Assembly: GCA_019217005.1 (NCBI GenBank)
Contig: JAHBNG010000021.1
Location: forward strand, 93,282 to 157,281
Length of the DNA stretch: 64,000 nt
From: Chloroflexi bacterium TSY
Lineage (GTDB): Bacteria; Chloroflexota; Anaerolineae; Caldilineales; Caldilineaceae
Direction of reading: 5' to 3'
How positions within the stretch are numbered: the first letter of the stretch is position 1; each line of letters begins with the position of its first letter. Of this stretch, positions 10,622-61,440 are shown piece after piece. The notes under the pieces were generated by a model. It did no database searches. It was not told the origin of the DNA and was given only the letters and a program-made list of their open reading frames with translations. Both the position numbers and the translations under genes were made by a program.

Positions 10622-10841
10622 CAGTAGATCCAAATTTGGCGTTTTTGGCGATTTTCAGTCGAGATTGCAGGGATTTTGGAGTCATTTATTCAGATTTCGG
10701 TTACAGAAAACAACCTATTTCATATCTGAAAATCGCCCAAATCTAACGCAAAAACTAGATATCGACCGGCAAATTTGTATTTATGTCAACTGTTTAGCCA
10801 GAATTCTCTCTCAAAACCTGAAATTTGGATCTACTGAGACT
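10617..10841. mobile_element. MITE-1 (CAGTAGATCC family), copy at 10.6 kb
   Basis: A 225-bp element with a 21-bp perfect terminal inverted repeat, AGTCTCAGTAGATCCAAATTT. The internal sequence (CGATTTTCAGTCGAGATTGC ... CGACCGGCAAATTTG) is repeated almost exactly at 27127-27345 (opposite orientation) and 59781-60159 (also opposite). It carries no coding capacity; the ORF across it is fortuitous. Confidence 0.88.
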
Positions 10842-11848: not shown

Positions 11849-12013
11849 AGCCTAAGAGCAAACGAGTGTAGTACAGCATTCGCTCGTCTTGCTCTGGGCT
11901 CCTATTTAAGATCCCACAATTCCTTTCGCCCAAATCCCGCATCCAGCATAAAATAATTAGACAGCGGTATCTAAAGTGAAATGCGTCCGAATTTATCCTC
12001 AATTTGAAATCGG

Positions 12014-12060
12014 TGAAAAAAATGTGTAAAGTTTGAGCAGATACGGGAATTAGTATACTG
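12014..12060 (+). promoter_or_regulatory. Shared bipartite sigma-gene upstream element, copy 1
   Basis: An A7 tract is followed by TGTGTAAAG (12023-12031) and CGGGAATTAGTA (12044-12055), with 21 bases between the two box starts. The same arrangement precedes the two other sigma paralogs. Here the coding start is 584 bases downstream, across a hairpin and a tandem repeat. TATACT at 12054-12059 overlaps and could be a housekeeping -10. Confidence 0.65.
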
Positions 12061-12065
12061 GAGCC

Positions 12066-12144
12066 GTTGACATTTGACAGCTCTCCTCAGAGCAATCATC
12101 GTGCAGAACGGCCAACACTCTGAGAGCGCACGCTAAATGTCAAC
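12066..12144 (+). other. Large inverted repeat just after the sigma-gene upstream element
   Basis: GTTGACATTT (12066-12075) pairs with AAATGTCAAC (12135-12144), and GCTCTC (12080-12085) with GAGAGC (12122-12127), forming a long hairpin right where a transcript from the upstream element would begin. It may be a leader structure or the ends of a small inserted element. From here to 12440 I see no convincing gene. Confidence 0.45.
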
Positions 12145-12440
12145 AGAACCTAATAAAGAAGCCACTTAAACTTCTTACATTCATTCCAAAATTGTTCAGA
12201 CTAAAAGTCGTTATGAATGTACGAAGGTAAGCATTCAGCTAGTCAGCCATCAGCTCGGCACGTCCCTGTATTGTTCTATGACATCGGCACCTCTAGAAAT
12301 CGGCTCCATCGCGACCACCTGCAGGCGCTGCTTCAGGAGAGTCACAGGCCAAATGAGGGGCGCGAACAAACCGAACAGCTCAGGTGTCGATCTCATAAAA
12401 CAGTACACTTCCCTGTCGAGACAAGCTGCTTAAAGGTGTC

Positions 12441-12591
12441 AAGCTGATAGCTGAAATGCCGATAAGCTGATAGCTAAAATGCTGATAAGCTGATAAGCTG
12501 ATAGCTAAAATGCTGATAAGCTGATAAGCTGATAGCTAAAATGCTGATAAGCTGATAAGCTGATAGCTAAAATGCTGATAAGCTGATAATT
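12441..12591. repeat. 31-bp tandem repeat built from an 8-bp unit
   Basis: Three exact 31-base units (12481-12511, 12512-12542, 12543-12573) of the form GCTGATAA GCTGATAA GCTGATAG CTAAAAT are flanked by partial, diverged units from 12441 and up to 12591. The array ends 47 bases before the sigma gene start. There are no spacers, so it is not a CRISPR array. Confidence 0.9.
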
Positions 12592-12638
12592 GAATAAAAG
12601 CTTATTGCCGTGACTGCTGCAAAAAACGAGAGGCGCAC

Positions 12639-13793
12639 ATGAATGCTATTCATACTGAACACGTAAACACATTTGAAAGCTTGGTGGCCAACGAACGAAC
12701 CAATCTACTGCGCTTTTGTACCCACTTGACCGGTTCTGTGCAAGCGGCCGAAGATCTAACCCAAGAGACATTGCTAACTGCTTGGCGTCGGCGAGATATA
12801 GTGACGGATGTAGATGGCCTACCTCATTGGCTCAAGGCCATTGCACGCAATGTCTGTCGCCACTGGCATCGCAGTCGAATGCGGCAGAGCAAACATCTCT
12901 TTACATCGGATCAGCACGATAGCCAAGGTCCAGATAGAGAATTCGACATGGTCGATGACTTTGATCTAGACGCAGAGCTGGAGCATTGTGAACTGGTTAC
13001 GTTATTGGATCGGGCGATGGCTCAACTACCGCCCGAAACGCGTAGTTTGCTCGTTCAGCACTACATCGAAGAACGCCCACATGCTGAAATCGCCACACAA
13101 AGTGGATTGAGTACGAGTGCCGTAGGTGTGCGGCTGCACCGTGGCAAGCAAGCGCTGCGGCAAGCGTTGGTCACCGATTTCCGGGATGATGCAATCTCCT
13201 ATGGTCTCGTGCGTGCTCGTGACGCGGATTGGGTCGAGACACGCATGTGGTGCTTCCGATGTGGTCAGCACCAACTCCAAGCGCGCTTTACTCCTGCTGA
13301 AAACCGTCTCTGTTTGCGTTGCCCAGGCTGTTGCGACATTCATGATGAAGATAGCAGGCTGAGCGATTCACACATTGATGGACTTCAGAAAATCAAAGCA
13401 TTTAAGCCTGCATTTTCACGGGTATTAGACTTTGTTCATACCATTTATTTCGAACAGGCAGAGGCAGGCCGTACCACTTGCCCCCAATGTGGACACTCCA
13501 CTCCACTTCGCTATGGTCCACTGCCGGAGAGGTTTGGCTCCCATGATGCCGTCTATGTGTTGTGTGATCGGTGTGAGGATGGAACCTTGGATTCCTGGCA
13601 CTATCTCGCACTCTCTCTGCCACAAGTACGCCAATTCTGGCGCAAGCACCCACGAATGGCCGAATTGCCCGATCGGCAAGTAGAAATTGCCAATAGCCCT
13701 GCTGTACTCACTGGTTTTGAAAGCGTGACTGACGGAACTAAGATCGAAGTTGCGTTCTCCACAAACACATTTGAAGTGATTGATATTAATTAA
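12639..13793 (+). CDS. ECF-type RNA polymerase sigma factor with C-terminal zinc ribbons (paralog 1)
   Basis: 384 residues. Sigma region 2 is at about 17-80 (NLLRFCTHLTG, AEDLTQETLLTAWRRRD) and region 4 at about 120-175 (LPPETRSLLVQHYIEE, then the helix-turn-helix GLSTSAVGVRLHRGKQAL). An acidic linker, DDFDLDAELE, joins them. The C-terminal 180 residues are not part of a normal ECF factor: they hold four Cys pairs (C205/C208, C225/C228, C281/C284, C309/C312), which read as two zinc ribbons, followed by a short alpha/beta tail. ECF factors recruit RNA polymerase to dedicated promoters; the extension may sense a signal in place of an anti-sigma factor (inference). Two close paralogs lie downstream. 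Confidence 0.88.
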   Translation: MNAIHTEHVNTFESLVANERTNLLRFCTHLTGSVQAAEDLTQETLLTAWRRRDIVTDVDGLPHWLKAIARNVCRHWHRSRMRQSKHLFTSDQHDSQGPDREFDMVDDFDLDAELEHCELVTLLDRAMAQLPPETRSLLVQHYIEERPHAEIATQSGLSTSAVGVRLHRGKQALRQALVTDFRDDAISYGLVRARDADWVETRMWCFRCGQHQLQARFTPAENRLCLRCPGCCDIHDEDSRLSDSHIDGLQKIKAFKPAFSRVLDFVHTIYFEQAEAGRTTCPQCGHSTPLRYGPLPERFGSHDAVYVLCDRCEDGTLDSWHYLALSLPQVRQFWRKHPRMAELPDRQVEIANSPAVLTGFESVTDGTKIEVAFSTNTFEVIDIN

Positions 13794-13890
13794 CCAGTAG
13801 GATCACCCCATAGTATACAACGAATCGCCAGCACTTCCGCGCCATGCCGGGTGTTACTCGTTACGCGCCCACGAATTCAGACCATTCAAA

Positions 13891-14009
13891 AAATTAGACA
13901 TGATAGGGATTGAAAAATAGGACACGGATTTTCAGGATGAACACGGATTATCCCAGAGTCAATCCATGAAATCTGTGTTTATCCGTGTCCCATCTTCTGA
14001 ATCTAATTT
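13891..14009. repeat. Intergenic palindromic repeat (ACACGGAT type)
   Basis: Outer arms AAATTAGA (13891-13898) and TCTAATTT (14002-14009) enclose GGACACGGAT (13920-13929) and ATCCGTGTCC (13981-13990), plus further copies of ACACGGAT inside. This imperfect long palindrome is probably a REP-like or MITE-like intergenic element. The region from 13794 to 14081 contains nothing else recognisable except the hairpin at 14014. Confidence 0.65.
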
Positions 14010-14013
14010 CTTG

Positions 14014-14037
14014 GGCTCACCCCAACCTGGGTGAGCC
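14014..14037 (+). other. 9-bp GC-rich hairpin before the HEAT-repeat gene
   Basis: GGCTCACCC (14014-14022) pairs with GGGTGAGCC (14029-14037) around a 6-base loop. No T run follows. The GTG at 14031 that could extend the downstream gene lies inside this stem, which argues for the later ATG start. Confidence 0.6.
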
Positions 14038-14081
14038 AGAACCAAAATGCAATCCATTCACTGCAAATGGGAGATCATCTT

Positions 14082-16127
14082 ATGACAAATTTACAGACAC
14101 CAGATACACAACAGATTGCAACACTGAAACAGTCTCTGAACGCATCTGATCAATCGATCCGTTTAAATGCTGCCCTGGATTTAGCGAAATTGGGGGATGC
14201 CGACAGCATTCCCGCCTTGATCGAAGGCTTCCAGGCTGACAACCTGGTCACTCGCCTCTTTCACGCCGGGGAGGCTTTAACAGAATTGGGGGATGTTGCC
14301 GTTCCCGCGCTGACTGCTGCACTGGATGCCGACCATGAAACAGTACGCGTGGATGCGGCCTATACGCTCTGGAAAATCGACTCTACACGGATAAATGAAC
14401 TCTTGCCCGTGGCTATCGAGACCTTGCGCAGTTGGGATCCCACTTTGACGATGGATGAGCAAATGCGTACACCACTGCTCGACGCAGCTATCCTGATTGG
14501 AGAAATGGGGGTCAATGCCAGTGAGGCGATTCCCGTTCTCACCACAATGTTACAGACACCCATACGGTGCGATGACCCGCAAGCCTGGGTTGGCGATCCA
14601 CGGCCATTCCTCGCTCTGCTGATGACCCAGGTTGCAGATTCGTCTGATCAGGTGGTTGATGCACTCATCGAAGCCCTGGTCGCTCCAGACGCTTCACTGC
14701 GCTGGGGTGCAGCCCGTGCCTTGGGGGAGCTGGGATTCGCTACCACACAGGCCGTTCCCGCGCTCACATCTCGGCTGACTGATGAGCAGGAGGTTGAGGC
14801 CGTCCGTGTGGAAGCGGCTTACTCGTTGGCAGTGATGGGCGATCCTGTGGAGGAAACGCTCCCCGCGCTCATACAGGCAGTCGGGAGTCAGGATTGGTGG
14901 GTACGCGCCTTTGTCGCCCGCATTCTTGGCGAAATGGGGTCACCACTCGAGCATGTGGAGGATGCTGAAGAGACAGACTGGCTCGACCGCGCCTTTTATG
15001 CACAGCGTACTGTCCGTCGAGTTGCACAACCAGAAATGCATATTGTGCCCGTCTTAGCGAGAGCGATGGCCGATCGTGACTACAATGTGCGTCGGAATGC
15101 TGTCTATGCACTCTCTCTGATTGGTGCGCGTGCAACGGAGGCCATTCCCCTGCTGATGAAGGCAATGCGCAGTCGTGACGTTGGTCCACTTGCCGCAGAG
15201 GCAATTGCCCAAGTGGGAGAAGCATCTCTGCCGGCATTGTTGCAAGCACTGGATGAAGGGGATGATCTAACCCGTCGTCGTGCCGCCTATGCCCTGCACC
15301 TGATTGACACCCCCGATGCGCAGGATGCGGTCAACCTGGCGCGTAAGAGAGGGGTCGAGCCCCTTCAACCGGCCTACCATCACTTTTATCTGCCGTGTGT
15401 TGTCTCTTTTGATGCCGCCAAAGAGGGCGCATTTGAAGCCCTCTATGCGGAGACTATCGCGCGTGGGCCAGGGAGCGAAGTCGTGTACACGCTGCCCTAT
15501 CCCAAGCATGAGTTTTTGCACTATTTGGTTGCATACAAAGGATTGCTGATGCACGGCAGCGGCGTGCCTGATTTGGAGGTACTGCGCCCCTTGCGTGAAT
15601 CGACTGATGCCAGCGAACAGGGCAACGTGAGTGGCATATATGCGGACAAGGGCTATATGCGCCCCATCTACTTTGCTGTGGTTCACCGCGATCGCTGCTT
15701 TGGGCTACACAGTGGTCTCTTTAATCTGGATGAAGATGGTACAGTTGTCTTTGATCAAGATCAGGGTCTGGCTCGCCGCTACTATAAACTTACGATTGGC
15801 ATCACGGGTCTGCGTCGAAATCCTTGGCGCGACGGCGCGGTCTATGCACTTTCGCCTGACACATTCGAGTATTGGGATAGTAAGTATTGGAGTGAGTGGA
15901 CCAGCCGTACGCCCGTACAACCGGTTCTGCGCTTGGCGGTTACACCAGACGATCTACCTTTAAAAGATGATCTGTGGGGTACTGACTTTCGTATGATCGC
16001 CTATGGAACGTGGGTCGAACCAAAAGAAGATGCCTTTCCATTCCTCAAGGATGTACGCGCCACGCCCTTTCATCCTTCTGGACAACCACCGTGGGTGCGC
16101 CAGATGGAAGGGCAATCCAATTCTTGA
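14082..16127 (+). CDS. HEAT-repeat protein with a conserved-looking C-terminal domain
   Basis: 681 residues from ATG 14082, preceded by GGGAGA at 8 bases. From about 15 to 430 there are roughly ten HEAT/PBS-lyase-type helical repeats (typical units: AVPALTAALDADHETVRVDAAYTLWKI; ALRWGAARALGELG). Residues of about 440-681 form a separate domain: LLMHGSGVPDLEVLRP, GIYADKGYMRPIYFAVVHRD, FGLHSGLFN and GAVYALSPDTFEYWD. The order of HGS and Y-A-x-x motifs recalls the ADP-ribosyltransferase-like 'HGS' folds, but this is a weak resemblance. HEAT solenoids usually bind proteins. It sits between two zinc-ribbon sigma genes on the same strand and could be under their control. Confidence 0.78.
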   Translation: MTNLQTPDTQQIATLKQSLNASDQSIRLNAALDLAKLGDADSIPALIEGFQADNLVTRLFHAGEALTELGDVAVPALTAALDADHETVRVDAAYTLWKIDSTRINELLPVAIETLRSWDPTLTMDEQMRTPLLDAAILIGEMGVNASEAIPVLTTMLQTPIRCDDPQAWVGDPRPFLALLMTQVADSSDQVVDALIEALVAPDASLRWGAARALGELGFATTQAVPALTSRLTDEQEVEAVRVEAAYSLAVMGDPVEETLPALIQAVGSQDWWVRAFVARILGEMGSPLEHVEDAEETDWLDRAFYAQRTVRRVAQPEMHIVPVLARAMADRDYNVRRNAVYALSLIGARATEAIPLLMKAMRSRDVGPLAAEAIAQVGEASLPALLQALDEGDDLTRRRAAYALHLIDTPDAQDAVNLARKRGVEPLQPAYHHFYLPCVVSFDAAKEGAFEALYAETIARGPGSEVVYTLPYPKHEFLHYLVAYKGLLMHGSGVPDLEVLRPLRESTDASEQGNVSGIYADKGYMRPIYFAVVHRDRCFGLHSGLFNLDEDGTVVFDQDQGLARRYYKLTIGITGLRRNPWRDGAVYALSPDTFEYWDSKYWSEWTSRTPVQPVLRLAVTPDDLPLKDDLWGTDFRMIAYGTWVEPKEDAFPFLKDVRATPFHPSGQPPWVRQMEGQSNS

Positions 16128-16208
16128 ACGATCCACAGATGGACGGGATTGACTGGATTTTCCTCTTTCTAATCCTGTTTATCCTGTCAATCTGTGGATC
16201 GTTATTTT
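16127..16208 (+). terminator. Long palindrome with T run after the HEAT-repeat gene
   Basis: AACGATCCACAGAT (16127-16140) pairs exactly with ATCTGTGGATCGTT (16190-16203), then ATTTTT follows. The loop contains GGATT/AATCC-rich sequence of the widespread intergenic 'AATCCTGTTTATCCTGTC' type. It may be a repeat that has been co-opted as a terminator. Confidence 0.6.
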
Positions 16209-16344
16209 TCTGGAATCGCCTATATGTCCAAGTTTTTGAATTCCGACACCGCTCTCTATGTCTTAAAGCCTCAGGTAAGATGCGTTGCCAATGACGTTTG
16301 GATCCTCCTCGGAAGATTCCTCATCCGTCGTATTGTGAAACCCA

Positions 16345-16390
16345 AGAAAAAAATGTGTAAAGTTTTGGCAGTAGCGGACATTAGTAAAAT
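16345..16390 (+). promoter_or_regulatory. Shared bipartite sigma-gene upstream element, copy 2
   Basis: An A7 tract, TGTGTAAAG (16354-16362) and CGGACATTAGTA (16375-16386) have a 21-base offset between box starts, identical to copies 1 and 3. The coding start lies 51 bases after the second box, a normal promoter distance. Confidence 0.75.
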
Positions 16391-16436
16391 AGTGTATGCT
16401 ATTGAGCGGTATTCTTATGGGAAAAAAGGATTCGCA

Positions 16437-17282
16437 ATGGAAGCCACAAACACCGAATTTCTAACCTCATTTGAGACAGTGGTTGCCAACGAACGGACAA
16501 ACCTCCTGCGCTTCTGCACTCACCTCACTGGCTCCTCGCAAGCGGCAGAGGATTTGACTCAGGAGACGCTGTTAACGGCCTGGCGGCGACGCAATACGAC
16601 GACCAACCTTGATGGCTTATCTCATTGGCTCAAAGCAATTGCGCGCAACGTCTGTCGCAACTGGCAAAGGAGCCAAGCGCGTCAGTACAAACATTTGTCG
16701 CTCGTTGAGCCACATGCTACTCAAAAGCCACATGCCGAGTTCGAGCTGGCAGACGATTTCGATCTGGACATTGAACTCGAGCGGAGTGAGCTTGCAACGC
16801 TGTTGGATCGGGCAATGGATTTGCTGCCAGAACAAACGCGTGGATTGTTGGTTCAACACTATATCGAAGAACTCCCCCAAGCCGAATTGGCTGCGCGGGC
16901 TGGTTTAAGTACCGGCGCAGTCGGTGTGCTTCTCCATCGTGGAAAGCTGGCACTTCGCAAAGCATTGATCAACGACTTTCGGGAGGATGCTGTGGCGCAT
17001 GGTTTGGTCATGCCCAGCGACGTTGAGTGGGTCGAAACACGGATCTGGTGCATGCGTTGTGGTCAACACAGGCTACAGGGACATTTCGATCATGCCAAAA
17101 ATTTCCTGCATTTGCGTTGCTCAAGCTGTTGTGAGCGCTCCGTTTATGCCGGTACAATTACCTATACCCATAGTACTGAACTACAAGGCGTCAAGGCATT
17201 TAAACCAGCATTATCACGCTTGTTGAGTTGGGATTACATGTATGGTTTTGGGGGTGGTTCAAAATTAGGTTTACACTTTTGA
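16437..17282 (+). pseudogene. ECF-type sigma factor paralog 2, 3' end cut off by a MITE
   Basis: Starts at ATG 16437 (MEATNTEFLTSFETVVANERTN), close to paralog 1 throughout: region 2 with AEDLTQETLLTAWRRRN, acidic linker DDFDLDIELE, region 4 with AELAARAGLSTGAVGVLLHRGK. The first zinc ribbon (CMRCGQHRLQGHF ... LRCSSCC) is present. After LSRLLSWDYMYGF the frame enters the MITE at about 17251 and stops at 17282, so about 110 residues including the second Cys quartet are missing. The sigma core is intact and the protein could still be made. The frame is open upstream to 16194, but the shared element marks that part as non-coding. Confidence 0.85.
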
Positions 17283-17405
17283 TATATAGACAAAAATCTA
17301 TATGAGACCGTTTTCTCTCTGAGAACCGGCGAAATCAGAGAATATAAACGTTCTTTCTGTTTCTAAAAGTGTAAACCTATCTATCCAGCTAAAATGAACC
17401 ACCCC
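17252..17405. mobile_element. MITE-2 (GGGGTGGTTC ends), copy 1
   Basis: About 154 bp beginning GGGGTGGTTCAAAATTAGG and ending AAAATGAACCACCCC, with internal TTTACACTTTTGATATATAG and AAAAGTGTAAACCTA. It is nearly identical to copies at 19825 and 59902. Unlike the other copies its flanks (TGGTTTTG on the left, CGACAGAG on the right) do not match, so it has no target duplication. It joins a truncated sigma gene to a truncated transposase. Confidence 0.9.
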
Positions 17406-18180
17406 CGACAGAGCCGTTGTAACAGGGTTTGCCTTCCGGGATGAAAGAGACTTCTACTTGTAATCGCAAAGCCAGTCGAATGACTCGGCTCAGTGAGCGG
17501 GCAGCGGTGCCCCAACCAGTAAATTCTTTGCCATTATCGAACTGAACGATGGCTGGGATGCCGAGCTTCATCCAGGCATGAACCAAGAATTCAAGAACCG
17601 TATCAGAGGTACGGTTGGTGACGAACTCGATATAGACAGCCTGATCAAAGATGTCCCGACAGACCAGAAAGTAGTAGCGAGTCTTATCATCTTTGAGATA
17701 GCGAGGTCCAACAAAGTCAATCTGATGCACCTGATTGCTATCCTGCGCCTGCGGTCCCGGATATTCGGTCCGTGCAATTCGAGGAGCAAGCTGCAAGGGT
17801 GGACAGGATAATCCAGCCTGATTGACAATCCGCTCAATTGTCCGTGCTGATGGTAGAGGCGTGTATCCCAAGTTTTCTAGTTCTGCTCGGATTTGCTCGG
17901 CGCCCACCAATCCGTATCGCGTCTCGGCTGTCGCTCGTTTGGTTAAGCGTTTCCGAATACTGATTATCGCTCGCTCAATATGGGGCGGTGTTCGATTCGT
18001 CACTTGCCGAGGAGCACGCGTCAAATCGTACAATCCTGCAGGTCCTACATCCATGTATCGACGCCACCACTTATGGAACCAACTCTCTGAACGATTTAAT
18101 GTTTGGCAGATCGCTTCAATATTTTCTCCGGCCAGACGCAATCGGATCGCTGCTTGTCTTGCCGATAACTCATCGTGCAT
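17389..18180 (-). pseudogene. IS481-like integrase-core transposase, C-terminus lost
   Basis: 263-aa frame starting at ATG 18180 behind AAAGGAG. An N-terminal helix-turn-helix (ARQAAIRLRLAGENIEAICQTLNRS) is followed by an rve-type catalytic core: first Asp in VHQIDFVGPR and second Asp in IVQFDNGKEFTGWG. The protein stops inside the MITE just after PCYNGSV, before the catalytic Glu that normally follows, so the enzyme cannot be active. Confidence 0.85.
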
Positions 18181-18283
18181 TTTGTTCTCCTTTCGCTTGC
18201 TGGCGGTTTCAGGAAAACACTATACGCGACCTTACCAAATTTCTGATGCTTACTATCCTTTTTATGACGCGTCTTTCCGACAC

Positions 18284-18368
18284 AAACCTCCACGATGTTC
18301 TGTCGGTCTCTTGCGCTTTTTACTACACGTTTCGCTGTCGGTTAAAACCTCCACGATGTTCTGTCGGT
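18284..18368. repeat. 24-bp direct repeat upstream of the truncated transposase
   Basis: AAACCTCCACGATGTTCTGTCGGT-type sequence occurs at 18284-18307 and again at 18345-18368, with a 61-base period. It lies about 100 bases upstream of the transposase start and may mark its IS end or binding sites. A small palindrome (TAACGTCA ... TGACGTTA) follows near 18383-18410. Confidence 0.75.
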
Positions 18369-18501
18369 TAGCACCTATTAGTAACGTCAGACAGACAGAT
18401 TCTGATGACGTTATTGTATCCCACTCACTGATGTAAATCAACCCTCTTTGTAGGTCACCCTATCAGGACGACGAGCATTCACATCATCCTGATTATAGTT
18501 A

Positions 18502-19806
18502 GGCTAAACCAAAAAAATAAATAATTATACGCGAACGAGAGAATGGAGAGGGGGAATAAGGACAAACCATTTTTCTAAACCAGGTAAACGTTGGAAGCGT
18601 TGTTCCAAACGGTCCATCTCTTTCTGAGTGAGTTTGACGCCGGTCTCATAAAGAGTGGAATTCAGGTGAACGAAGGGTTGTAGTTGGTTAAAGCGAAAAG
18701 AACGGGCAAAATTGAGAACGGTCTCAAGAGAATCGAGAAGAGAACCGTTCCAGTGTTTTTCAAGATGGCCCCAAACCCGTTCGATGGGGTTGTATTTACT
18801 GTGATAAGGAGGGTAGCAGGCGAGCTGAATAGAGAGACGATAGTGCTCAACAAACTGAGTGAGACGATACATAAACTGAGTCCGACGGGTATGATTTTCG
18901 GGACCATTGTCCTGATTGATCACGAGGGTCTTGACGTGAGGAAAGTGTTCACGTACGCTTTCCCAAAAATCAATCAGGCAGTCGACAATACAGTCACTCG
19001 TCACTTTCGACTGAGTCAAGTAAAGAAAGAGTTCCTTGGTTGAAGGGAGGTAAATGCCAAAAGGAGTGACTTTCTCGGTCTTCTTATCTTGAAAGTCATG
19101 ATCGAGCGCTTTGACAACCACTCGACTTATCCCTTCTCTCGAGAAACGGTCAAGTAAAATCGTCGCTTTGGCATCCCAAGAGAGGCGCAGAACCGTCTCG
19201 TCTGCATCCGCTTCTTGATTGATCTGATGAATTCTATCAAAGATCGCATCGGTCTCTGGGATCTTTTTCACTGGTTGACTTTTTTTGACCCGGTTTGAGC
19301 CATAGCCTAACTCATTGAGCTTCAAGCGGATGGCCTCTTCGCCAGGCAATTCCTCATCTGTGTATCCTTTCTGCTCGATGAGCTGGGTACGCATTTCGGC
19401 GGCGGTTAGTCGAGTGTACAATTGGGGGGTTCGAAAGGTGGGATCGGTCTGGCTGAATTGATCGGCGATTTCAACCATATCGGCCAGTAAAGTGGGGATA
19501 TGGTCTTCGGCTTTTTTGCGACCACGTCGGTGGCTTTGGTCGACATAACAGAAGCCGCCTTCTAGTTCTTCCAGGGCTTTGGCTATCGTCGCCCGATTCC
19601 AGCCCAACTCTCGTTCTGCTTTCGTCGGACTCCCTTCGCATATCGTTTTGACCGTTTGGGCCATGAAGTGCCTTCTTTCGTATCCACTTAACATGGCCTT
19701 CGTCTCTTTCAAGACTTCAACCATTTCTGGCGAGATTGTCATTTTTGCTCCTTTTGGAGAGCTAGTTTAACACCTTCTCGCGTATATTTTATTTTTTGGA
19801 TTGGCC
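18502..19806 (-). mobile_element. ISAzo13-like insertion sequence
   Basis: About 1.3 kb with imperfect inverted ends: GGCTAAACCAAAAAAATAAA at 18502, and GGCCAATCCAAAAAATAAA on the complement ending at 19806, each followed inwards by ATACGCGA. It encloses one intact transposase. No convincing target duplication was found. The right end is directly followed by the TTTAA target duplication of the adjoining IS-A. Confidence 0.8.
18525..19742 (-). CDS. ISAzo13-family transposase (intact)
   Basis: 405 residues, the only intact transposase frame in the window. An N-terminal helix-turn-helix region (TKAERELGWNRATIAKALEELEGG) is followed by a basic segment HRRGRKKAEDHIP and a DDE core: Asp in RLSWDAKATILLD, Asp in VINQDNGPENHTRR and Glu in KYNPIERVWGHLEKHW. 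These motifs are characteristic of ISAzo13 transposases. It fills the element almost end to end. Confidence 0.9.
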   Translation of the reverse strand: MTISPEMVEVLKETKAMLSGYERRHFMAQTVKTICEGSPTKAERELGWNRATIAKALEELEGGFCYVDQSHRRGRKKAEDHIPTLLADMVEIADQFSQTDPTFRTPQLYTRLTAAEMRTQLIEQKGYTDEELPGEEAIRLKLNELGYGSNRVKKSQPVKKIPETDAIFDRIHQINQEADADETVLRLSWDAKATILLDRFSREGISRVVVKALDHDFQDKKTEKVTPFGIYLPSTKELFLYLTQSKVTSDCIVDCLIDFWESVREHFPHVKTLVINQDNGPENHTRRTQFMYRLTQFVEHYRLSIQLACYPPYHSKYNPIERVWGHLEKHWNGSLLDSLETVLNFARSFRFNQLQPFVHLNSTLYETGVKLTQKEMDRLEQRFQRLPGLEKWFVLIPPLHSLVRV

Positions 19807-19824
19807 TTTAACTTTACTTTCTGG

Positions 19825-19979
19825 GGGGTGGTTCAAAATTAGGTTTACACTTTTGATATATAGACAAAAATCTATATGAGACCGTTTTCTCTCTGAGAAC
19901 CGGCGAAATCAGAGAATATAAACGTTCTTTCTGTTTCTAAAAGTGTAAACCTATCTATCCAGCTAAAATGAACCACCCC
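19825..19979. mobile_element. MITE-2, copy 2 (inside the IS-A end)
   Basis: Same sequence as copy 1, flanked by an exact 8-bp duplication CTTTCTGG (19817-19824 and 19980-19987). The site is within the terminal repeat of IS-A copy a. Confidence 0.93.
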
Positions 19980-20073
19980 CTTTCTGGTAAAAGAAAAGAG
20001 ATGAGGTGAGAAATGTGACAAAAAGCGGTTAGCAGTTCATCCTAAAGGTAGAGAACCCAAAAAGGAGGAAGGA

Positions 20074-21362
20074 ATGCTAACCGCGCCAGAAATAACTATA
20101 GCAGTACTGATGAATGTATTGCAAGTAACGCCGATGGGAACAAACGTAAATGTAATGCGTCTGATGTGGGCAATGCTGAATGGGTCGTTTCTGAAAAGTC
20201 GAGGAGCAATCCATAGCGCATTGAAAGAAAGCGGGTTTGAAGATGAGGAGCTCCGGCGAAGCTGGTGGAGCTTTCGATATGGATCATGGGATATCACAAG
20301 TCTGCTGGGGTCGTGGCAAGAAGAAGTGGAAAGGGAATGGGAGGCAAAAAAGTTAGAAGGGTACCGAGTGAAAAGCATAGATATCACAGGGTTCTGGCGA
20401 CCGAAGCTGCAAGGGAAAGTGAACCGACTCTATAACTCAACGGCTCGTCGGCATTGCCCGCTCATCTTTGGAGTGATGATAAGCTCGGGGGAGATAGGCG
20501 GGAAGCGAGTGCCACTGCTCAAGGCAATCATGAGATGCACGGTTGGAACAAAGGAAAGTGAGTTTCGGAAAAAGCTGCTGACAGAGACGAAGAAATCACT
20601 GGAGTCAGACGAAGTGGCGGTGGTCGATGCCGGGTTTACAATCAGAGAAATGCTAGAAAGCGGCATCGACCGATTTGTCCTGCGGGAAGCCATTAACTGC
20701 ACAGTGCGCCGCAATGAGTTCCCCAAACGCAAAGAAAAAAGGCAGACCACCTGAATATGGTGATATTGTGCGTCCGCTCTCTCGCAGCTATAAGGGAAAG
20801 CGACTCGAGGCTACAACTCCGGACTCGTCTGGTCGCTTTCTCTATAGTGGTCGCCTGATTTGCTATCAAGCATGGCACAATCTCGTCCCCAGAACAACCA
20901 AGGTGGATACAGCCAACCGTACCTACTCGATTTACGTCATTCAGGATCCGGCCTACAACACACCTTTGGTTTTGGCGACCGTTATGACTTTGCAGCCTGA
21001 AACCATTTATCTTGTCTACCTGGAACGCTGGCCTGTTGAACCTCCCCCCCTTGGCTTCCAAGCAGATGATTGGCTTACATCGTCAATTTGTTCATGCCGA
21101 TGAGGCTTGTTTCCGCTTACCTGAACTGGGGCTGCTGGCTGGCAATCTTCTTTCCCATTTAGCCGCTTCTCTTCCTCCCATACCGACTGGCTACTGGGAT
21201 CGAGAGCCTCAATCCACTCCCGGCAGGCTGCGCCGTGTTCTCTCGAGTGCTCTTTTTCCAACTCCTGACCAACTCGACCCTGACTTTCGGAAAAAGGCCT
21301 CGGTTTCACACCATTTCCCTAAAGGCGTTCTCGCTCATCGCCGCCTCAATGCCGCTGCTTAA
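20074..21362 (+). pseudogene. IS-A transposase, copy a (frameshifted)
   Basis: Begins MLTAPEITIAVLMN behind AAGGAGGAAGG. The reconstructed protein of about 430 residues has the IS4-superfamily core: first Asp in SIDITGFWRPKLQG, second Asp in VAVVDAGFTIREM, and YLERWPVEPPPLASK, which fits the Y-(2)-R-(3)-E-(6)-K signature exactly. The frame breaks at an A6 run (about 20732-20737, before GRPPEYGDIVRP) and again at a C7 run (about 21044-21050; six C in copies b and d). It is the least damaged of the four copies in the middle region. Confidence 0.88.
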
Positions 21363-21594
21363 ACTAGCCGAGCACTATTTTTACATTTTATCCCGTTTTT
21401 TCAGGGTGGATTCTTTTTTCCGCCCCTTTCGGTTTGCCCTTTGTCACTCAAGCCTTTACCAGAAAGTAAAGTTTAACAAAATAAACGGATGGAGCCGCGG
21501 CCCGTCCTTATGCCACTTGTCAAGTAAAACTCGGTAATGATAAAATCTCGTAGATTAGCCAGATTGCGGTTGGAAAATACCGATCACAAATTCG

Positions 21595-21640
21595 TTGAAA
21601 AAAACGCGTCAACTCTTGCGACGAGCGGACATTACTAAGT
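21595..21640 (+). promoter_or_regulatory. Shared bipartite sigma-gene upstream element, copy 3
   Basis: An A7 tract, CGCGTCAAC (21605-21613) and CGGACATTACTA (21626-21637) again have a 21-base offset. The coding start is 43 bases beyond the second box. The first box is the most diverged of the three, matching the more diverged protein. Confidence 0.75.
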
Positions 21641-21679: not shown

Positions 21680-22852
21680 ATGAATAGACAGCAGACTGAC
21701 CAAGAGATCAAAACTGTCATCTTATCCGCAATCTCATCCGAGGGTGAACGCAATCGACTCGTGCGACTCTGTGCACGGTTAACGGGGGATCCATCTGTCG
21801 CCGAGGATTTGACCCAAGAGACTTTGATCACTGCATGGCGCCATTGCGAGCAAGTTACGAATCCTGCCGGCATCTCCGCATGGTTGGCAACGATTGCGCA
21901 CAACCACTGTCGCAATTGGATCCGCAGCCGGAGTCGTCAGCAAAAATACATCGTTGCGGGTGCCGATCTTGATTCATCTGCTGCCATCAACACCATTGAA
22001 GCCTGTGAAGATTTCGATCTGGATGTAGAGTTGGAACGCGAAGAGATCGTCGCTCTTTTGGATCGGGCTATCGTTCACTTGCCAAAAGAGACCCAAACCC
22101 TGTTGGTCGACCACTATATCGAAGAGATTCCTCAATTAGAACTTGCAGCGCAGTTGGGCATTCAGTCCAGCGCAATTGCGAGCCGCCTGAATCGGGGCAA
22201 AACGGCACTACGTCGTCTGCTGGTCACTGAGTTTAGCGACGATGCCCTGGCCCTTGGACTGATCTCATCTGACAACGTGGGTTGGCAGAGCACCCGCATA
22301 TGGTGTACCAATTGTGGTCAGAAGAAGATGCGCGGCAAATTTGCGAGTGAAGGTGATGGACAGTTGATTTTGCAATGCGATTGTGGCGCAAATTTCGGAG
22401 TAAGTGGCCCTTCTGGACTTCTCGAGGGTGTTCGTGGTTTTCGTCCTGCCCTGAATCGATCAAGGCAATGGCGGCACACTTTTTTCCAGGCTGGTTTGCG
22501 CACGGGTGAAGTTGATTGTCCATGTTGTACAAAGACGGTCAAGCTGCATTTGAATGTCCACACCCCCGTCCCTGCCTTTTTTGGGCCGCGCCCCGCGGAC
22601 GAACAGTGCGTTTGGGCTCATTGTACGGCTTGCGGTTGGCATCATCACAGCGATCTGGGGGGTCTATCCGGTGCTTATCCGGAATGGCTCCATTTTTGGC
22701 GACAACATCCCCGCATGAATTCACTTCCCATCCAACAAATCGAATATCAGGGCGCGCCTGCGTCATTGGTAAGCGTTAGATCACATAATGATGACGCCCA
22801 ACTTGATTTGATTTTCCACGCAAAGACGTTTGTACGTCTTAATTCCTCGTAG
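21680..22852 (+). CDS. ECF-type sigma factor with C-terminal zinc ribbons (paralog 3)
   Basis: 390 residues from ATG 21680, preceded by AGGAGA at 10 bases; the earlier ATG at 21647 has no such site. Region 2: RLVRLCARLTGDPSVAEDLTQETLITAWRH. Acidic linker: EDFDLDVELE. Region 4: LPKETQTLLVDHYIEEIPQLELAAQLGIQSSAIASRLNRGKTAL. The C-terminal extension repeats the paralog 1 layout: CTNCGQKKMRGKF with LQCDCGANFG, then CPCCTKTVKLH with HCTACGW, and a tail LHFWRQHPRMNSLPIQQIEYQGAPA. It is complete. It is followed after 322 bases by a small ORF and an ABC exporter pair on the same strand. Confidence 0.88.
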   Translation: MNRQQTDQEIKTVILSAISSEGERNRLVRLCARLTGDPSVAEDLTQETLITAWRHCEQVTNPAGISAWLATIAHNHCRNWIRSRSRQQKYIVAGADLDSSAAINTIEACEDFDLDVELEREEIVALLDRAIVHLPKETQTLLVDHYIEEIPQLELAAQLGIQSSAIASRLNRGKTALRRLLVTEFSDDALALGLISSDNVGWQSTRIWCTNCGQKKMRGKFASEGDGQLILQCDCGANFGVSGPSGLLEGVRGFRPALNRSRQWRHTFFQAGLRTGEVDCPCCTKTVKLHLNVHTPVPAFFGPRPADEQCVWAHCTACGWHHHSDLGGLSGAYPEWLHFWRQHPRMNSLPIQQIEYQGAPASLVSVRSHNDDAQLDLIFHAKTFVRLNSS

Positions 22853-23430: not shown

Positions 23431-25197
23431 ATGAATCAATCTTTCACTGTACAACCTCTTGACTATCGACATCTGTTTACCAAATACATGGGCCCCCTTC
23501 GGTGGCAGGTGATGGGATTGGCTGTTGTGTTATGCATTGGCATCGGACTTGACCTGCTTGGTCCGCACATCATGCGCAATTTTATCGATGGCGCGCAAAG
23601 CAATGTCGGAACGATTGCGCTTCTCCAGCTTGCATCGATTTTTCTCGGTGCGACGCTGCTCAATCAGCTCATGTCTATCATCGAAGCCTATTTGACAACC
23701 GACGTGAGCTTCAAGGCGACAAATCGCCTACGATCTGATCTCACGCAGCACAGTTTGTCTCTGGACCTCAACTTTCATCACGCACATACACCGGGAGAGC
23801 TAATCGAACGCGTGGACGGCGATGTCGTCTTCTTGAGCAATTTCTTTTCGCGTTTTGTCTTGCAAATCATCAGCAGCGTCTTGCTCCTGGCCGGCATTCT
23901 CGTCATGCTCTTTCGTGTGAATGGTCAAATTGGGGCAGCCATCACAATCTATGTCGTGCTTGTCTTTGCTTTGTTTTCGCGGCTATTACAGGTGAGTGTG
24001 CCCTATTGGGGGCAGATTCGAGATGCTTTTGGTCGCTTTTCGGGGTTCTTGGAAGAACGGCTCTCGGGCACAGAAGATCTGCGTGCCAACGGTGCCATCC
24101 CATATACCATGCGACGCTTTTATGAACATGGTCGAGAGCTCTTCTTCGGTTTTATGAAGGCATTTATGATTGTCTCGTCTATTTCGAGTTCCAATCTCGT
24201 TTTCTTTGCCGTAGGCACCGTACTTTCTCTCGGTATGGGGATATATTTCTACAGCCAAGGGCAAATCACTCTCGGCACAGTCTTTCTGATTTTTAGCTAC
24301 ACGGAGCTGTTGAGTCGCCCCATCGAACAGATATTGGATCAGGTGGGCGATTTGCAGCAGGCGGGCGGCAGCATTGTCCGCATTCAAAAATTGCTGAGTA
24401 TACCGGCGACAATCGTGGATGGACCTGGCGCTGAATTGCCCCATCAAGCGCCAAAAATCGAGTTCGACGAGGTTTCATTTACCTATAGCGAGGAGCGTGG
24501 AGCAGCAAATGTCTTGACGAACATCTCCTTTATGATTGAACCGGGAGCGACTCTGGGGATACTTGGTCGTACTGGGAGTGGAAAGACCACCATCGCAAGG
24601 TTGTTGGCTCGCCTCTGGGAGCCAACAGCGGGCGAAATCCGCTTGGGAGGCATTCCTGTGCAACAGGCAACGTTGGCCGAGTTAGGCGATTACCTTTCGT
24701 TTGTGACCCAAGACGTGCATCTCTTTCATGCCTCTCTTCGTCACAATCTGACCCTCTTTAATCCTACGATCTCTGATCAACGGATCTTGCAGGCACTTGA
24801 TGAACTGGGGCTACGATCATGGTACAACTCGCTGCCCGCAGGTTTAGACACGGTTCTTACTGCGGGTGATGATGGTCTCTCGGCAGGTGAATCCCAGTTG
24901 CTGGCTGTCACGCGTGTCTTTTTGAAAGATCCCAAAGTGGTCATTCTGGACGAGCCTACATCTCGACTGGACCCAATGACAGAACAGCGACTTGGACGGG
25001 CCATTGCGCATCTAGTGGCCGGCCGTACGGGCATCATCATTGCGCATCGCCTCACCACCGTTCAGGTGGCCGGCGACATTCTCATTTTAGAGGATGGTCG
25101 CATCGTGGAACAAGGGAATCGCGATGAATTGATGCACAATCCAAATTCCAGATTTGCCCAACTATACCGCACAAGCCAGGAAGGAGCCGTCGCATGA
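23431..25197 (+). CDS. ABC exporter, subunit 1 (fused permease-ATPase)
   Basis: 588 residues: six membrane helices (about 20-300), then a nucleotide-binding domain with Walker A GRTGSGKTT (about 380), Q-loop SFVTQD, signature LSAGES, Walker B VVILDEPTS with the catalytic Glu, and H-loop IIAHRL. The signature deviates from LSGGQ, while subunit 2 keeps LSGGQ but has a weakened Walker B. This complementary pattern is typical of heterodimeric exporters with one degenerate ATP site. GAAAAAGGAG precedes the ATG. It overlaps subunit 2 by 4 bases (ATGA). The substrate is unknown. Confidence 0.92.
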   Translation: MNQSFTVQPLDYRHLFTKYMGPLRWQVMGLAVVLCIGIGLDLLGPHIMRNFIDGAQSNVGTIALLQLASIFLGATLLNQLMSIIEAYLTTDVSFKATNRLRSDLTQHSLSLDLNFHHAHTPGELIERVDGDVVFLSNFFSRFVLQIISSVLLLAGILVMLFRVNGQIGAAITIYVVLVFALFSRLLQVSVPYWGQIRDAFGRFSGFLEERLSGTEDLRANGAIPYTMRRFYEHGRELFFGFMKAFMIVSSISSSNLVFFAVGTVLSLGMGIYFYSQGQITLGTVFLIFSYTELLSRPIEQILDQVGDLQQAGGSIVRIQKLLSIPATIVDGPGAELPHQAPKIEFDEVSFTYSEERGAANVLTNISFMIEPGATLGILGRTGSGKTTIARLLARLWEPTAGEIRLGGIPVQQATLAELGDYLSFVTQDVHLFHASLRHNLTLFNPTISDQRILQALDELGLRSWYNSLPAGLDTVLTAGDDGLSAGESQLLAVTRVFLKDPKVVILDEPTSRLDPMTEQRLGRAIAHLVAGRTGIIIAHRLTTVQVAGDILILEDGRIVEQGNRDELMHNPNSRFAQLYRTSQEGAVA

Positions 25198-26987
25198 CAC
25201 AGACAAATTATCTACCCTATATATGGCAACTTGCGCTGTACAGGTTTCCGATCTATATCGCAATGGTTGCGGCTATCTTGATCAACATATTCTTGCCTTT
25301 GGTGCCAGGTCTGTTGATTCGCACCATCTTTGATCGTTTAACCAACAGTGCACCTTTGATGATGGATGCCTATGGACTGCTGGCTCTCCTTCTCGGCGTC
25401 GGGGTCGTTCGATATATCGCAGCGATCATCGAGATCGCACTGCAAAATGGGTATGATATTCTGGTCAGACTTCTTATGCAAAAGAACCTGTTCCAACGAT
25501 TCCTCGCCTATCCGGGGGCTGCATTGCCAGCTTCTACTGGTGAAGCGCTCAGCCGTTTGAATTACGATGTGCAAGCATTTGCTGGTTTCGTAAGCTGGAT
25601 CGCGTATCCGGTTGGCCAGGCATTGATGGTGATCGTCGCTCTCTATATTCTCACAAGCATCAGTCTGCTCGTGACAGCCGTCGCATTTCTGCCCATCTTG
25701 GTCGTATTGGTCTTGATCAACTTAACTGCACAACGGATTCGAGAATTTCGCCAAGCCAACCAAGAAGCGACCGGTGAGGTTATGGGGTTTCTTGGGGAAA
25801 TCTTTGCGGCAGTACAAGCAGTAAAAGCTGGTCACGCAGGAACGGATGTCGTCGCGCATCTGGATATTCTCAGTGACAGAAGGCGTCAGGCAGCGTTGAA
25901 GGATACACTCTTTTCTCAGTTGCTTGCAACAATGTCAGCAAATGCTGCCAGTTTGGGCACGGCGGCGGTCCTCTTTACATCCGCCCAATTGCTGCAAAAT
26001 GGCCAATTTACCGTGGGCGACTTTGCGCTGTTTGTCTCTTACTTAGGATTGCTTGCGGAAACGATTTTCAATGCGGGTCGATTCTTGACGCGTTACTATC
26101 AAGTGGGAATTTCCTTTGAGCGTTTATGCGAGTTGCTTGGTGACGATTCACCATCAATTTTGACGAAACCTGGCCCTCTCTATTTACGAGGCAAAATTCC
26201 ACCCACACCAACTGTATCTTGCTCAGATGTCGCTGAACTTGCTGAAATCGATGTTTCCGGCCTGGGTTATGAATTTCCGTCCAACAATGGGAAATCCAAA
26301 TTCAAACTCAATGATATCAGCTTTCATTTGAAGCGCGGTGAGTTTGTCGTGATTACCGGGCGCATTGGATCGGGCAAGACAACACTTTTGCGTGCGTTTT
26401 TAGGGCTGCTGCCAAAGAGTATTGGTGAGATTTATTGGAACGAACAGCCGGTCCATGATGCTGCGGAATTTTTTGTTCCGCCAATCTGCGCATATACGCC
26501 GCAGGCTCCAAGGCTCTTTAGCGAAAGCGTCTATGACAATATCCTAATGGGCCTGCCAACGCACGAAGTAGATCCGTCCGCTGCTATCCGTGCTGCTGTC
26601 ATGGAGCAGGATATCCGCCAGCTTGAGAATGGCTTAGATACTGTTATCGGACCCCGCGGCGTCAAGCTCTCTGGCGGGCAGATGCAGCGTACTGCTGCGG
26701 CTCGCATGTTTGTTCGTTCACCACAGCTCATGGTCTTTGATGATTTGTCAAGTGCATTGGATGTGCGGACGGAGCAGGTTTTATGGGAACGCCTACAGTC
26801 GATGCGGAAGGCAGCCGAACAAGAGCCGCCAACCTGTTTAGTTGTTTCTCATCGCCAAGCGGCTTTATGCCATGCAGATCGAATCATTGTCCTAAAAGAG
26901 GGACGAATCGAAGCGACTGGAACCCTTGATGAGTTGCTAGCAAGTTGTGAGGAGGTGCAGGAGTTATGGCGTGGTAAATTGACATGA
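25194..26987 (+). CDS. ABC exporter, subunit 2 (fused permease-ATPase)
   Basis: 597 residues with the same type I exporter layout. Walker A GRIGSGKTT lies near residue 388, followed by TPQAPRLFSESVYDNI, the canonical signature LSGGQMQR, and Walker B LMVFDDLSSALD, where Asp replaces the catalytic Glu; the H-loop is VVSHRQ. The Asp marks this ATPase as the degenerate half. The start overlaps the stop of subunit 1 (ATGA), ensuring equal translation. The pair follows the zinc-ribbon sigma factor and the 71-aa gene on the same strand, so it may belong to that regulon. Confidence 0.92.
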   Translation: MTQTNYLPYIWQLALYRFPIYIAMVAAILINIFLPLVPGLLIRTIFDRLTNSAPLMMDAYGLLALLLGVGVVRYIAAIIEIALQNGYDILVRLLMQKNLFQRFLAYPGAALPASTGEALSRLNYDVQAFAGFVSWIAYPVGQALMVIVALYILTSISLLVTAVAFLPILVVLVLINLTAQRIREFRQANQEATGEVMGFLGEIFAAVQAVKAGHAGTDVVAHLDILSDRRRQAALKDTLFSQLLATMSANAASLGTAAVLFTSAQLLQNGQFTVGDFALFVSYLGLLAETIFNAGRFLTRYYQVGISFERLCELLGDDSPSILTKPGPLYLRGKIPPTPTVSCSDVAELAEIDVSGLGYEFPSNNGKSKFKLNDISFHLKRGEFVVITGRIGSGKTTLLRAFLGLLPKSIGEIYWNEQPVHDAAEFFVPPICAYTPQAPRLFSESVYDNILMGLPTHEVDPSAAIRAAVMEQDIRQLENGLDTVIGPRGVKLSGGQMQRTAAARMFVRSPQLMVFDDLSSALDVRTEQVLWERLQSMRKAAEQEPPTCLVVSHRQAALCHADRIIVLKEGRIEATGTLDELLASCEEVQELWRGKLT

Positions 26988-27126: not shown

Positions 27127-27345
27127 CTCAGTAGATCCAAATTTCAGGTTTTGAGAGAGAATTCTGGCTAAACAGTTGACATAAATACAAATTTGCCGGT
27201 CGATATCTAGTTTTTGCGTTAGATTTGGGCGATTTTCAGATATGAAATAGGTTGTTTTCTGTAACCGAAATCTGAATAAATGACTCCAAAATCCCTGCAA
27301 TCTCGACTGAAAATCGCCAAAAACGCCAAATTTGGATCTACTGAG
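27127..27345. mobile_element. MITE-1 (CAGTAGATCC family), copy at 27.1 kb
   Basis: 219 bp, inverted relative to the copy at 10617 and nearly identical to it, with ends CTCAGTAGATCCAAATTT and complement. It ends 9 bases before the ATG of the AraC-DinB gene, so it replaces that gene's native upstream region. Confidence 0.9.
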
Positions 27346-41665: not shown

Positions 41666-41691
41666 CGGTTTTCTCCTCTTATACAATTTTA

Positions 41692-43192
41692 CTTTACTTT
41701 CTGGTAAAGGCTTGAGTGACAAAGGGCAAACCGAAAGGGGCGGAAAAAAGAATCCACCCTGAAAAAACGGGATAAAATGTAAAAATAGTGCTCGGCTAGT
41801 TTAAGCAGCGGCATTGAGGCGGCGATGAGCGAGAACGCCTTTAGGGAAATGGTGTGAAACCGAGGCCTTTTTCCGAAAGTCAGGGTCGAGTTGGTCGGGA
41901 GTTGGAAAAGAGCACTCGAGAGAACGCGGCGCAGCCTGCCGGGAGTGGCTTGAGGCTCTCGATCCCAGTAGCCAGTCGGTATGGGAGGAAGAGAAGCGGC
42001 TAAATGGGAAAGAAGATTGCCAGCCAGCAGCCCCAGTTCAGGTAAGCGGAAGCAAGCCTCATCGGCATGAACAAATTGACGATGTAAGCCAATCATCTGC
42101 TTGGAAGCCAAGGGGGGATGTTCAACAGGCCAGCGCTCCAGATAGAAAAGATAAATGGTTTCAGCTTGTAAAGCCATGACGGTCGCCAGAACCAAAGGTG
42201 TGTGATAAGCAGGATCCTGAAAGACGTAAATCGAATAGGTGCGGTTGGCTGTATCCACCTTGGTTGTCCTGGGGACGAGATTGTGCCATGCTTGATAGCG
42301 AATCAGGCGACCACTATAGACAAATTGACCAAACGAGTCTGGAGTTGTGGCCTCGAGTCGCTTTCCCTATAGCATCGAGAGAGCGGACGCACAATATCAC
42401 CATATTCGGGTGGTCTGCCTTTTCCTTACGTTCGGGTAACTCATTGCGGCGCGCTGTGCAGTTAATCGCTTCCCGAAGGACAAATCGGTCGACGTCGCTT
42501 TCTAGCATTTCTCTGATTGTAAACCCGGCATCGACCACCGCCACTTCGTCTGACTCCAGTGATTTCTTCGTCTCTTTCAGCAGCTTTTTCCGAAACTCAC
42601 TTTCCTTTGTGCCTACCTCGCATCTCATGATTGCCTTGAGCAGTGGCACTCGTTTCCCACCTATCTCCCCCGAGCTTATCATCACTCCAAAGATGAGCGC
42701 GGGCAATGCCCGACGAGCCGTTGAGTTATAGAGTCGGTTCACTTTCCCTTGCAGCTTCGGTCGCCAGAACCCTGTGATATCTATGCTTTTCACTCGGTAT
42801 CCTTCTAACTTTTTTGCCTCCCATTCCCCTTTCCACTCCACTTCTTCTTGCCACGATGAGAGCAGGCTTGCAATATCCCATGATCCATATCGAAAGCTCC
42901 ACCAGCTTCTTCGGATCTCCTCATCTTCAAACCCGCTTTCACTCAATCCACTATGGATTGCTCCTCGACTTTTCAGAAACGACCCATTCATCATCGCCCA
43001 CATCAGACGCATTACATTTACGTTTGTTCCCACCGGCGTTACTTGCAATACATTCATCAGTACTGCTATAGTTATTTCTGGCGCGGTTAGCATTCCTTCC
43101 TCCTTTTTGGGTTCTCTACCTTTAGGATGAAACGCTAACCGCTTTTTGTCACATTTCTCCCCTCATCTCTTTTCTTTTACCAGAAAGTAAAG
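41692..43192 (-). mobile_element. IS-A (IS4-superfamily) copy b
   Basis: 1.5 kb with ends CTTTACTTTCTGGTAAA and complement, flanked by TTTA on both sides. It is the most diverged of the four copies (many substitutions relative to a, c and d), so it probably represents an older insertion. It separates the esterase from the kinase-like genes. Confidence 0.88.
41811..43093 (-). pseudogene. IS-A transposase, copy b (frameshifted)
   Basis: The N-terminal 230 residues are in one frame (from MLTAPEITIAVLMN to NELPERKEK). Then a GGAAAAGG context takes the frame off GRPPEYGDIVRP. A further base is missing at TATAGGGAAAG, and the last 190 residues (VDTANRTYSIYVFQDPAYHTP ... PPLASKQMIG) are in a third frame. 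The Y-(2)-R-(3)-E-(6)-K motif is intact within that part. Confidence 0.85.
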
Positions 43193-58384: not shown

Positions 58385-58493
58385 TATAGTAAAGAATGAT
58401 GAAACCAATGATAATGCCAAAAATAAGCAGCCTTACCCACGACGGCCAAAGTTTGCTTTCGCCGTCGGTTAAGGGACGGACGGCATCGCTCAT
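58384..58493 (-). pseudogene. Small membrane protein cut off by IS-A copy c
   Basis: The frame from ATG 58493 reads MSDAVRPLTDGESKLWP, SWVRLLIFGIIIGFIILYYT, one clear membrane helix, and then enters the IS end. An upstream ATG (58554, MTNKKTEIQATLF) is in another frame. It may have been a short single-pass protein; its remainder is not in the window. Confidence 0.5.
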
Positions 58494-61331: not shown

Positions 61332-61440
61332 CTTTATTTTCTGGTAAAGGCTTGAGTGACAAAGGGCAAACCGAAAGGGGCGGAAAAAAGAATCCACCCT
61401 GAAAAAACGGGATAAAATGTAAAAATAGTGCTCGGCTAGT

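Follow-up and report, generated by a model that had tools for sequence, protein, structure and literature searches.

Putative autoregulatory promoters before three genes for extracytoplasmic function sigma factors with cysteine-rich extensions in a Chloroflexota genome

The 64-kb stretch of contig JAHBNG010000021.1 of Chloroflexi bacterium TSY analysed here (the window) carries three paralogous genes for sigma factors of the extracytoplasmic function (ECF) type, each preceded by a bipartite element that consists of an A7 tract, a -35-type box and a second box. The element of sigma copy 1 (12016..12055, + strand) consists of A7 at 12016-12022, the -35-type box at 12023-12031 (TGTGTAAAG), and box 2 at 12044-12055 (CGGGAATTAGTA). 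The element of copy 2 (16347..16386, +) has A7 at 16347-16353, the -35-type box at 16354-16362, and box 2 at 16375-16386 (CGGACATTAGTA); that of copy 3 (21598..21637, +) has A7 at 21598-21604, the -35-type box at 21605-21613 (CGCGTCAAC), and box 2 at 21626-21637 (CGGACATTACTA). The tracts, the box coordinates and the 21-base offset between box starts given in a preliminary description of the locus were re-read from the sequence and are exact in all three copies, as are the distances from the last base of box 2 to the ATG of copy 2 (51 bases, ATG at 16437) and of copy 3 (43 bases, ATG at 21680). The distance for copy 1, left open there, is 584 bases (ATG at 12639). The surrounding 51-nt blocks (12005-12055, 16336-16386 and 21587-21637) form one repeat family, the latter two being 78% and 61% identical to copy 1. 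Elsewhere in the window the pair is absent, as had been stated: a pattern scan allowing up to 3 mismatches returns the three known places and has no match in 100 shuffles. We note that copy 1 itself needs 3 mismatches, and that the pattern was derived from the three copies, so the scan shows only that the sequence is uncommon.

Sigma copy 1 (12639..13793, +, 384 residues) consists of Sigma70 r2 and r4_2 domains and a C-terminal extension with four CxxC pairs. Copy 2 (16437..17282, +, 281 residues) is truncated: r2, r4 and the first CxxC..CxxC are retained and the rest of the extension, its second half, is gone. Its last residues are encoded by a 157-nt repeat starting at 17250, and the profile match stops at model position 269 of ~385; having lost half its extension, the protein could be dead or unregulated. 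Copy 3 (21680..22852, +, 390 residues) is a remote paralog with 40% identity to copy 1, and its first unit has CxC where the second CxxC would stand. Regions 2 and 4 are present and regions 1 and 3 absent, which defines ECF (group 4) members of the sigma-70 family, and TIGR02937 is above its cut-off for P0001, P0002 and P0003. Within the family, all 80 full-length members have at least two CxxC in the extension and 59 of the 80 at least four; 28 aligned extensions show two CxxC..CxxC units. Modelled alone, the extension reaches a mean pLDDT (predicted local distance difference test score) of 90 and is predicted to be mostly beta. A fold search with the extension against solved structures returned weak partial hits and no match at E <= 0.001. 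DUF7351 (PF24042) matches the extension of copy 1 weakly (25 bits, under the cut-off of 31.2) and is matched by 8 of 30 family members at E <= 0.01.

The evidence that such elements act as promoters comes from the relatives of these genes. Their loci provide 90 sigma genes, three of them from the window, of which three generic ECF genes (L079, L044, L032) were dropped from the motif counts. The training set further omits L119 and L121, which have short upstream regions, as well as the window; the resulting 82 genes were thinned to 76 by identity. An unseeded two-block search of these 76 upstream regions finds an A-tract followed by TGYGTMAG, 17 bases and CGAYAT, in detail an AAAA-TTGCGTAAG-like first box and then CGACATA, with a gap of 17 taking 85% of the weight and a gap of 16 another 10%. 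The motif log-likelihood is 707 bits versus 153, 157, 162 and 167 in four shuffled sets, at unequal search effort (120 starting points for the real set, 80 for each shuffled one), and by the model's own estimate the motif is present in 95% of the 76 genes. In a cluster-aware test, for which relatives more than 50% identical were removed and retraining over 4 rounds began from a model that had seen the left-out gene, sites above 12 bits occur in the gene's own upstream region in 47 of 76 cases, in the reverse complement in 4 of 76, and in 10 of 740 random 300-nt pieces of the relatives' loci. In 0.97 Mb of partly redundant loci, 37 of the 40 distinct sites above 20 bits lie directly 5' of a family sigma gene, most of these genes belonging to the training set. 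Two further sites (L176, L175) precede the gene after sigma, namely a major facilitator superfamily (MFS) gene and a gene whose product resembles the L155 serine hydrolase, and the last (L188) lies inside a long reading frame. Two loci outside the training set, L190 and L183, score 21.5 and 27.6 bits. ECF sigma factors often, though not always, have a two-part promoter with a spacer of 16-17 bases in front of their own gene, and the present family shows this trait.

A scan of 20 relatives' genomes with a fixed pattern (at most 2 mismatches) gives 51 matches, versus 21 for the reversed pattern used as control. By reading coordinates and contexts, 16 of the 51 were assigned to sigma loci: 14 before a family sigma gene, one before an MFS gene behind sigma, and one (L203) before a gene adjoining sigma. 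Sorted by mismatch, sigma loci account for 3 of 3 matches with none, 6 of 9 with one, and 7 of 39 with two. The genome-wide search that the preliminary description had called for, run here on these relatives, gave a divided answer, its best matches standing at sigma operons and its two-mismatch matches mostly elsewhere. One locus, L199, was reached by the motif alone; the site lies 5' of a family sigma gene (270 bits with the profile) that had been part of neither the training set nor the protein matches. Together with the unseeded motif, the placement of sites before sigma genes and the cluster-aware test, this locus bears out for the family the earlier reading of the boxes as an ECF -35/-10 pair. 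Genome G019 has 14 matches (3 at sigma loci) versus 2 in the control and holds most of the excess over control, which could reflect a wider regulon.

Sites are also seen at genes beside sigma. In L176 (5208, reversed strand) and L175 (5336, reversed strand) the motif occurs once more, between sigma and the next gene; target genes can therefore have their own sigma promoter. In L203 (1500, reversed strand) a gene for a small protein adjoining sigma has its own motif site of 19.8 bits and is likely a second target of the sigma factor. Such a gene stands beside sigma genes likewise in L164, L165, L170, L171 and L173, and the small protein of these six loci looks HIT-like.

Within the window, the regions before copies 1, 2 and 3 score 16.3, 17.0 and 12.8 bits with the model trained without them, box 1 supplying most of this (15.5, 15.5 and 11.5 bits). 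The leader between the element and the gene of copy 1 (12056..12638, +) contains an inverted-repeat hairpin within ~12060-12150 (z -3.25) and a 31-bp tandem array at 12450-12589. A second family-spaced site of 15.4 bits (12431-12471), near the copy 1 gene and bordering on this array, could be a nearer promoter of copy 1 or chance. Upstream of the copy 3 element, 21517-21546 is a good sigma-70-type match (TTGTCA-18-TAAAAT with TG) and a possible basal promoter. A ~110-nt repeat present three times (10705-10815, 27150-27260 and 59804-59910; 97-100% alike) holds TTTTTGCGTTAGAT, which resembles the family -35 box.

The genes downstream of sigma are mostly transporters. Among 69 testable loci the downstream gene encodes an MFS protein (41 loci), an ATP-binding cassette (ABC) transporter (8) or a serine hydrolase (2), versus 5 transporter or hydrolase genes in 84 upstream controls. 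The reference proteins behind the exporter labels come from these very loci; 10 downstream proteins were named by Pfam, 4 by NCBIfam and the others by similarity. Four of the eight ABC matches are ATPase subunits without a membrane domain, and three tested MFS examples share similarity with efflux proteins of the H+ antiporter, Tap, Mef or EntS type, at scores below curated cut-offs. In the window, a pair of ABC exporter half-transporter genes (23431..26987, +; 23431-25197 and 25194-26987) starts 578 bases past copy 3 and is, by analogy with the relatives, likely a target of the copy 3 sigma factor. The 3' neighbour of copy 1 is a gene for a HEAT-repeat protein, that of copy 2 transposon-type DNA.

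With a probability of roughly 0.85, we interpret the three elements as autoregulatory promoters; the ECF sigma factors that they serve carry a cysteine-rich extension, and each would constitute a local, self-amplifying efflux switch. From the computed family-wide motif, its position before sigma genes, the transporter linkage and the domain make-up we infer binding, zinc, a signal, a sensor role and positive feedback. Each element would be read by RNA polymerase carrying its own sigma factor or a close paralog, with region 4 contacting the A-tract and the TGYGTMAA box (-35) and region 2 opening the duplex at box 2 (-10). The extension, with two CxxC..CxxC units in most members, probably holds two zinc sites and is likely the sensor, substituting for an anti-sigma factor. 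On a signal, for which metal, thiol stress or a drug are candidates, the sigma factor would transcribe its own gene and the adjoining transporter gene (MFS in most relatives, the ABC pair behind copy 3).

Several results weigh against this interpretation. No site above 12 bits is found in 29 of the 76 relatives, and none of the transporter or hydrolase genes lies downstream in 18 of the 69 loci, including window copies 1 and 2. Likewise, 35 of the 51 scan matches are away from known sigma loci, exceeding the 21 control matches; of three such contexts inspected, two are inside long reading frames and one lies 345 bases before a possible regulator gene. Protein and promoter distances covary for sigma2 and the -10 (r 0.18, p 0.0025). 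This is a weak test, since the correlation of sigma4 with -35 distance is not significant (r 0.075, p 0.11) and the spacer, which served as control, goes with sigma2 as well (r 0.11, p 0.01). Finally, with the family -10 model the best scores of box 2 in the window copies are 2.0, 2.5 and 1.2 bits over all the gaps tested, and they fall at different gaps.

Of the two boxes in the window copies, box 1 fits the family motif and box 2 fits the family -10 poorly, which leaves two candidate registers for the -10. The second element of the family starts 17 bases after TGYGTMAG, a spacing at which the window reads AATTAG, CATTAG and CATTAC; three bases closer, copies 1, 2 and 3 read GGGAAT, GGACAT and GGACAT. 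ATTA.TA is invariant in all three copies, which slightly favours a window -10 at the family spacing rather than at GGACAT. A similar GGACATCTGTA is found in L020, with a gap two bases short. The poor second box also suits a different explanation, that the boxes are not a promoter and form a conserved operator, through which another regulator would control a housekeeping-sigma promoter close by. Sigma-70-type matches do overlap or neighbour the elements (12004-12032, 16365-16393 and 21517-21546), and the region holds 18 of them versus a shuffle mean of 9.4. However, these matches vary in quality and place among the copies, two beginning before the element and one lying wholly before it, whereas the family element consists of two blocks at a fixed gap of 16-17 bases (95% of the gap weight), as expected for a sigma promoter. 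The element also travels with the sigma gene family, and no regulator gene cluster of similar size is found among the neighbours (after sigma: MFS in 24 loci, ABC in 6, small protein in 5). We therefore regard an operator as unlikely and retain the autoregulatory promoter.

The relationships of the proteins bear on the age of the arrangement. A search with the copy 1 protein gives 415 matches at E <= 0.001; among the 120 matches listed, those with a named organism are all Chloroflexota, several of them Caldilineaceae. Other labels among the family loci are Rubrobacter (L002) and Proteobacteria (L009), both metagenome-assembled, and Thermomicrobiales (L004, L011, L021). A tree of 112 rows, built by a quick method with support from the Shimodaira-Hasegawa-like approximate likelihood ratio test (SH-aLRT), puts copies 1 and 2 in one clade, each with nearer relatives elsewhere, and copy 3 in a separate, distant clade with P0106, P0122, P0123, P0125, P0126 and P0130. 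Judged by this placement, the three window genes are therefore old paralogs gathered in one place. The nearest relatives of the window copies include the proteins P0004-P0011 and P0106, and proteins of 50-64% identity exist. No locus more than 45% identical to copy 1 was found in the genomes searched, namely 400 of the phylum (E <= 1e-60), 396 of a class (1e-50) and 56 of an order (1e-30); a search with gamma-glutamyltranspeptidase was used solely for choosing a nearer group. The plasmids and viral contigs searched contained no relatives. Three copies within 10 kb of a repeat-rich region might suggest that the element is a functionless remnant, copied along with the genes in recent duplications. 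Yet the genes are no recent duplicates, each being nearer to proteins of other organisms, and the same type of motif is retained before related genes in many other genomes; a remnant is thus very improbable.

The preliminary description had suggested auto- or cross-regulation of the paralogs. The comparative evidence from the family supports the former, and the promoter likeness of copies 2 and 3 hints at the latter. Among relatives, distant paralogs of the same genome are no more alike in their promoters than genes of different genomes (84 versus 2163 pairs; p 0.38 and 0.41), with genome labels assigned by hand from contig names. The promoters of copies 2 and 3 show 13 differences over 43 positions, at a protein distance of 0.55 over the sigma part; among relatives' pairs with a distance above 0.5, only 3 of 2166 are as close (9 of 2166 for the boxes only). 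The window is unusual in this respect, and the three promoters may share one specificity, such that a paralog activates the others and the ABC pair, a trait of this lineage and not of the family. However, copy 3 enters two such pairs, and the other, copies 1 and 3, has 20 differences (318 of 2166 pairs as close); having picked the closer pair weakens the result. In addition, one partner may be dead, copy 2 being truncated, and gene conversion or chance could explain the likeness of copies 2 and 3. A cross-regulated trio is therefore a doubtful, if conceivable, addition to autoregulation.

The region between copies 2 and 3 (17250..21480) is probably inserted mobile DNA. It comprises two copies of a 157-nt repeat (17250 and 19824), transposase-type genes at 17389-18180 (-) and 18525-19742 (-), and a 1.5-kb element at 19980-21480. 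The latter occurs four times (further copies at 41691-43187, 56901-58388 and 61332-62820, 94-99% identical to the first), likely as insertion sequences. The 157-nt repeat occurs five times (17250, 19824, 44707, 59902 and 61177; 81-100% identity), and its copy at 17250 truncates sigma copy 2. A transfer-messenger RNA gene (1796-2210, -; Rfam RF00023, 148.5 bits) is also present, and the window therefore probably belongs to a bacterial chromosome.

Several known groups of ECF sigma factors resemble the present family. ECF41 factors have a SnoaL-like extension (PMC8999054) and a -35 of TGTCACA, not of the usual AAC type, with a spacer of 16 +/- 1 and the motif before both the sigma gene and a neighbouring target (PMC3426412). 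The large C-terminal regulatory extension, the atypical -35, a spacer of about this length and the combination of own promoter and neighbouring target are common to both (PMC3426412). The promoters differ, being TGYGTMAG-n17-CGAYAT here and TGTCACA-n16-CGTC in ECF41 (PMC3426412), as do the neighbours, mostly transporters here and carboxymuconolactone decarboxylases, oxidoreductases or epimerases there. A SnoaL-like domain had no Pfam match in the window and family scans, and the fold search with the extension gave weak partial hits. CorE-like factors, formerly ECF44 and today part of ECF238, are responsive to copper, cadmium or zinc and need a CXC between sigma2 and sigma4, which the other ~85% of ECF238 do not keep (PMC8999054). 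They share with the present family a cysteine-rich C-terminal extension on an ECF sigma factor without an anti-sigma factor (PMC8999054); unlike in CorE-like factors, no CXC is seen by inspection in residues 80-125 of P0001, P0002 and P0003. A C-terminal extension as presumed sensor is likewise described for ECF42, ECF56, ECF287 and ECF288, with TPR domains in ECF42 and SnoaL-like domains in ECF56 (PMC8999054). The Pfam scans found no TPR family here, and the extension is predicted mostly beta. ECF287 and ECF288 are cysteine-rich too, a likeness by description only (PMC8999054). About 55% of ECF sigma factors are predicted to be autoregulated (PMC8103513), so autoregulation itself is ordinary. 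A search of open-licence papers, a set to which the 2021 ECF classification does not belong, turned up no zinc-ribbon-like extension combined with exporter linkage.

The three-copy pattern thereby becomes a promoter model that can be tested across a whole family, the ECF sigma factors with cysteine-rich extensions beside drug-type exporters, and the motif offers a cheap, DNA-only route to further family members, which has worked once (L199). The family may be a set of Chloroflexota-centred, one-protein efflux switches, each an ECF sigma factor with a double zinc-ribbon-like sensor and its own A-tract-TGYGTMAG-n17-CGAYAT promoter, the promoters of same-genome paralogs being as a rule no more alike than those from separate genomes. 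The lineage of the window would then have a changed -10 common to two deeply separated paralogs, and with it a small cross-wired network; we put this picture forward as a tentative one, more doubtful than probable. The switches would provide a system for asking how a single protein unites a sensor with the selection of promoters, and what keeps paralogs insulated or lets them become cross-wired.

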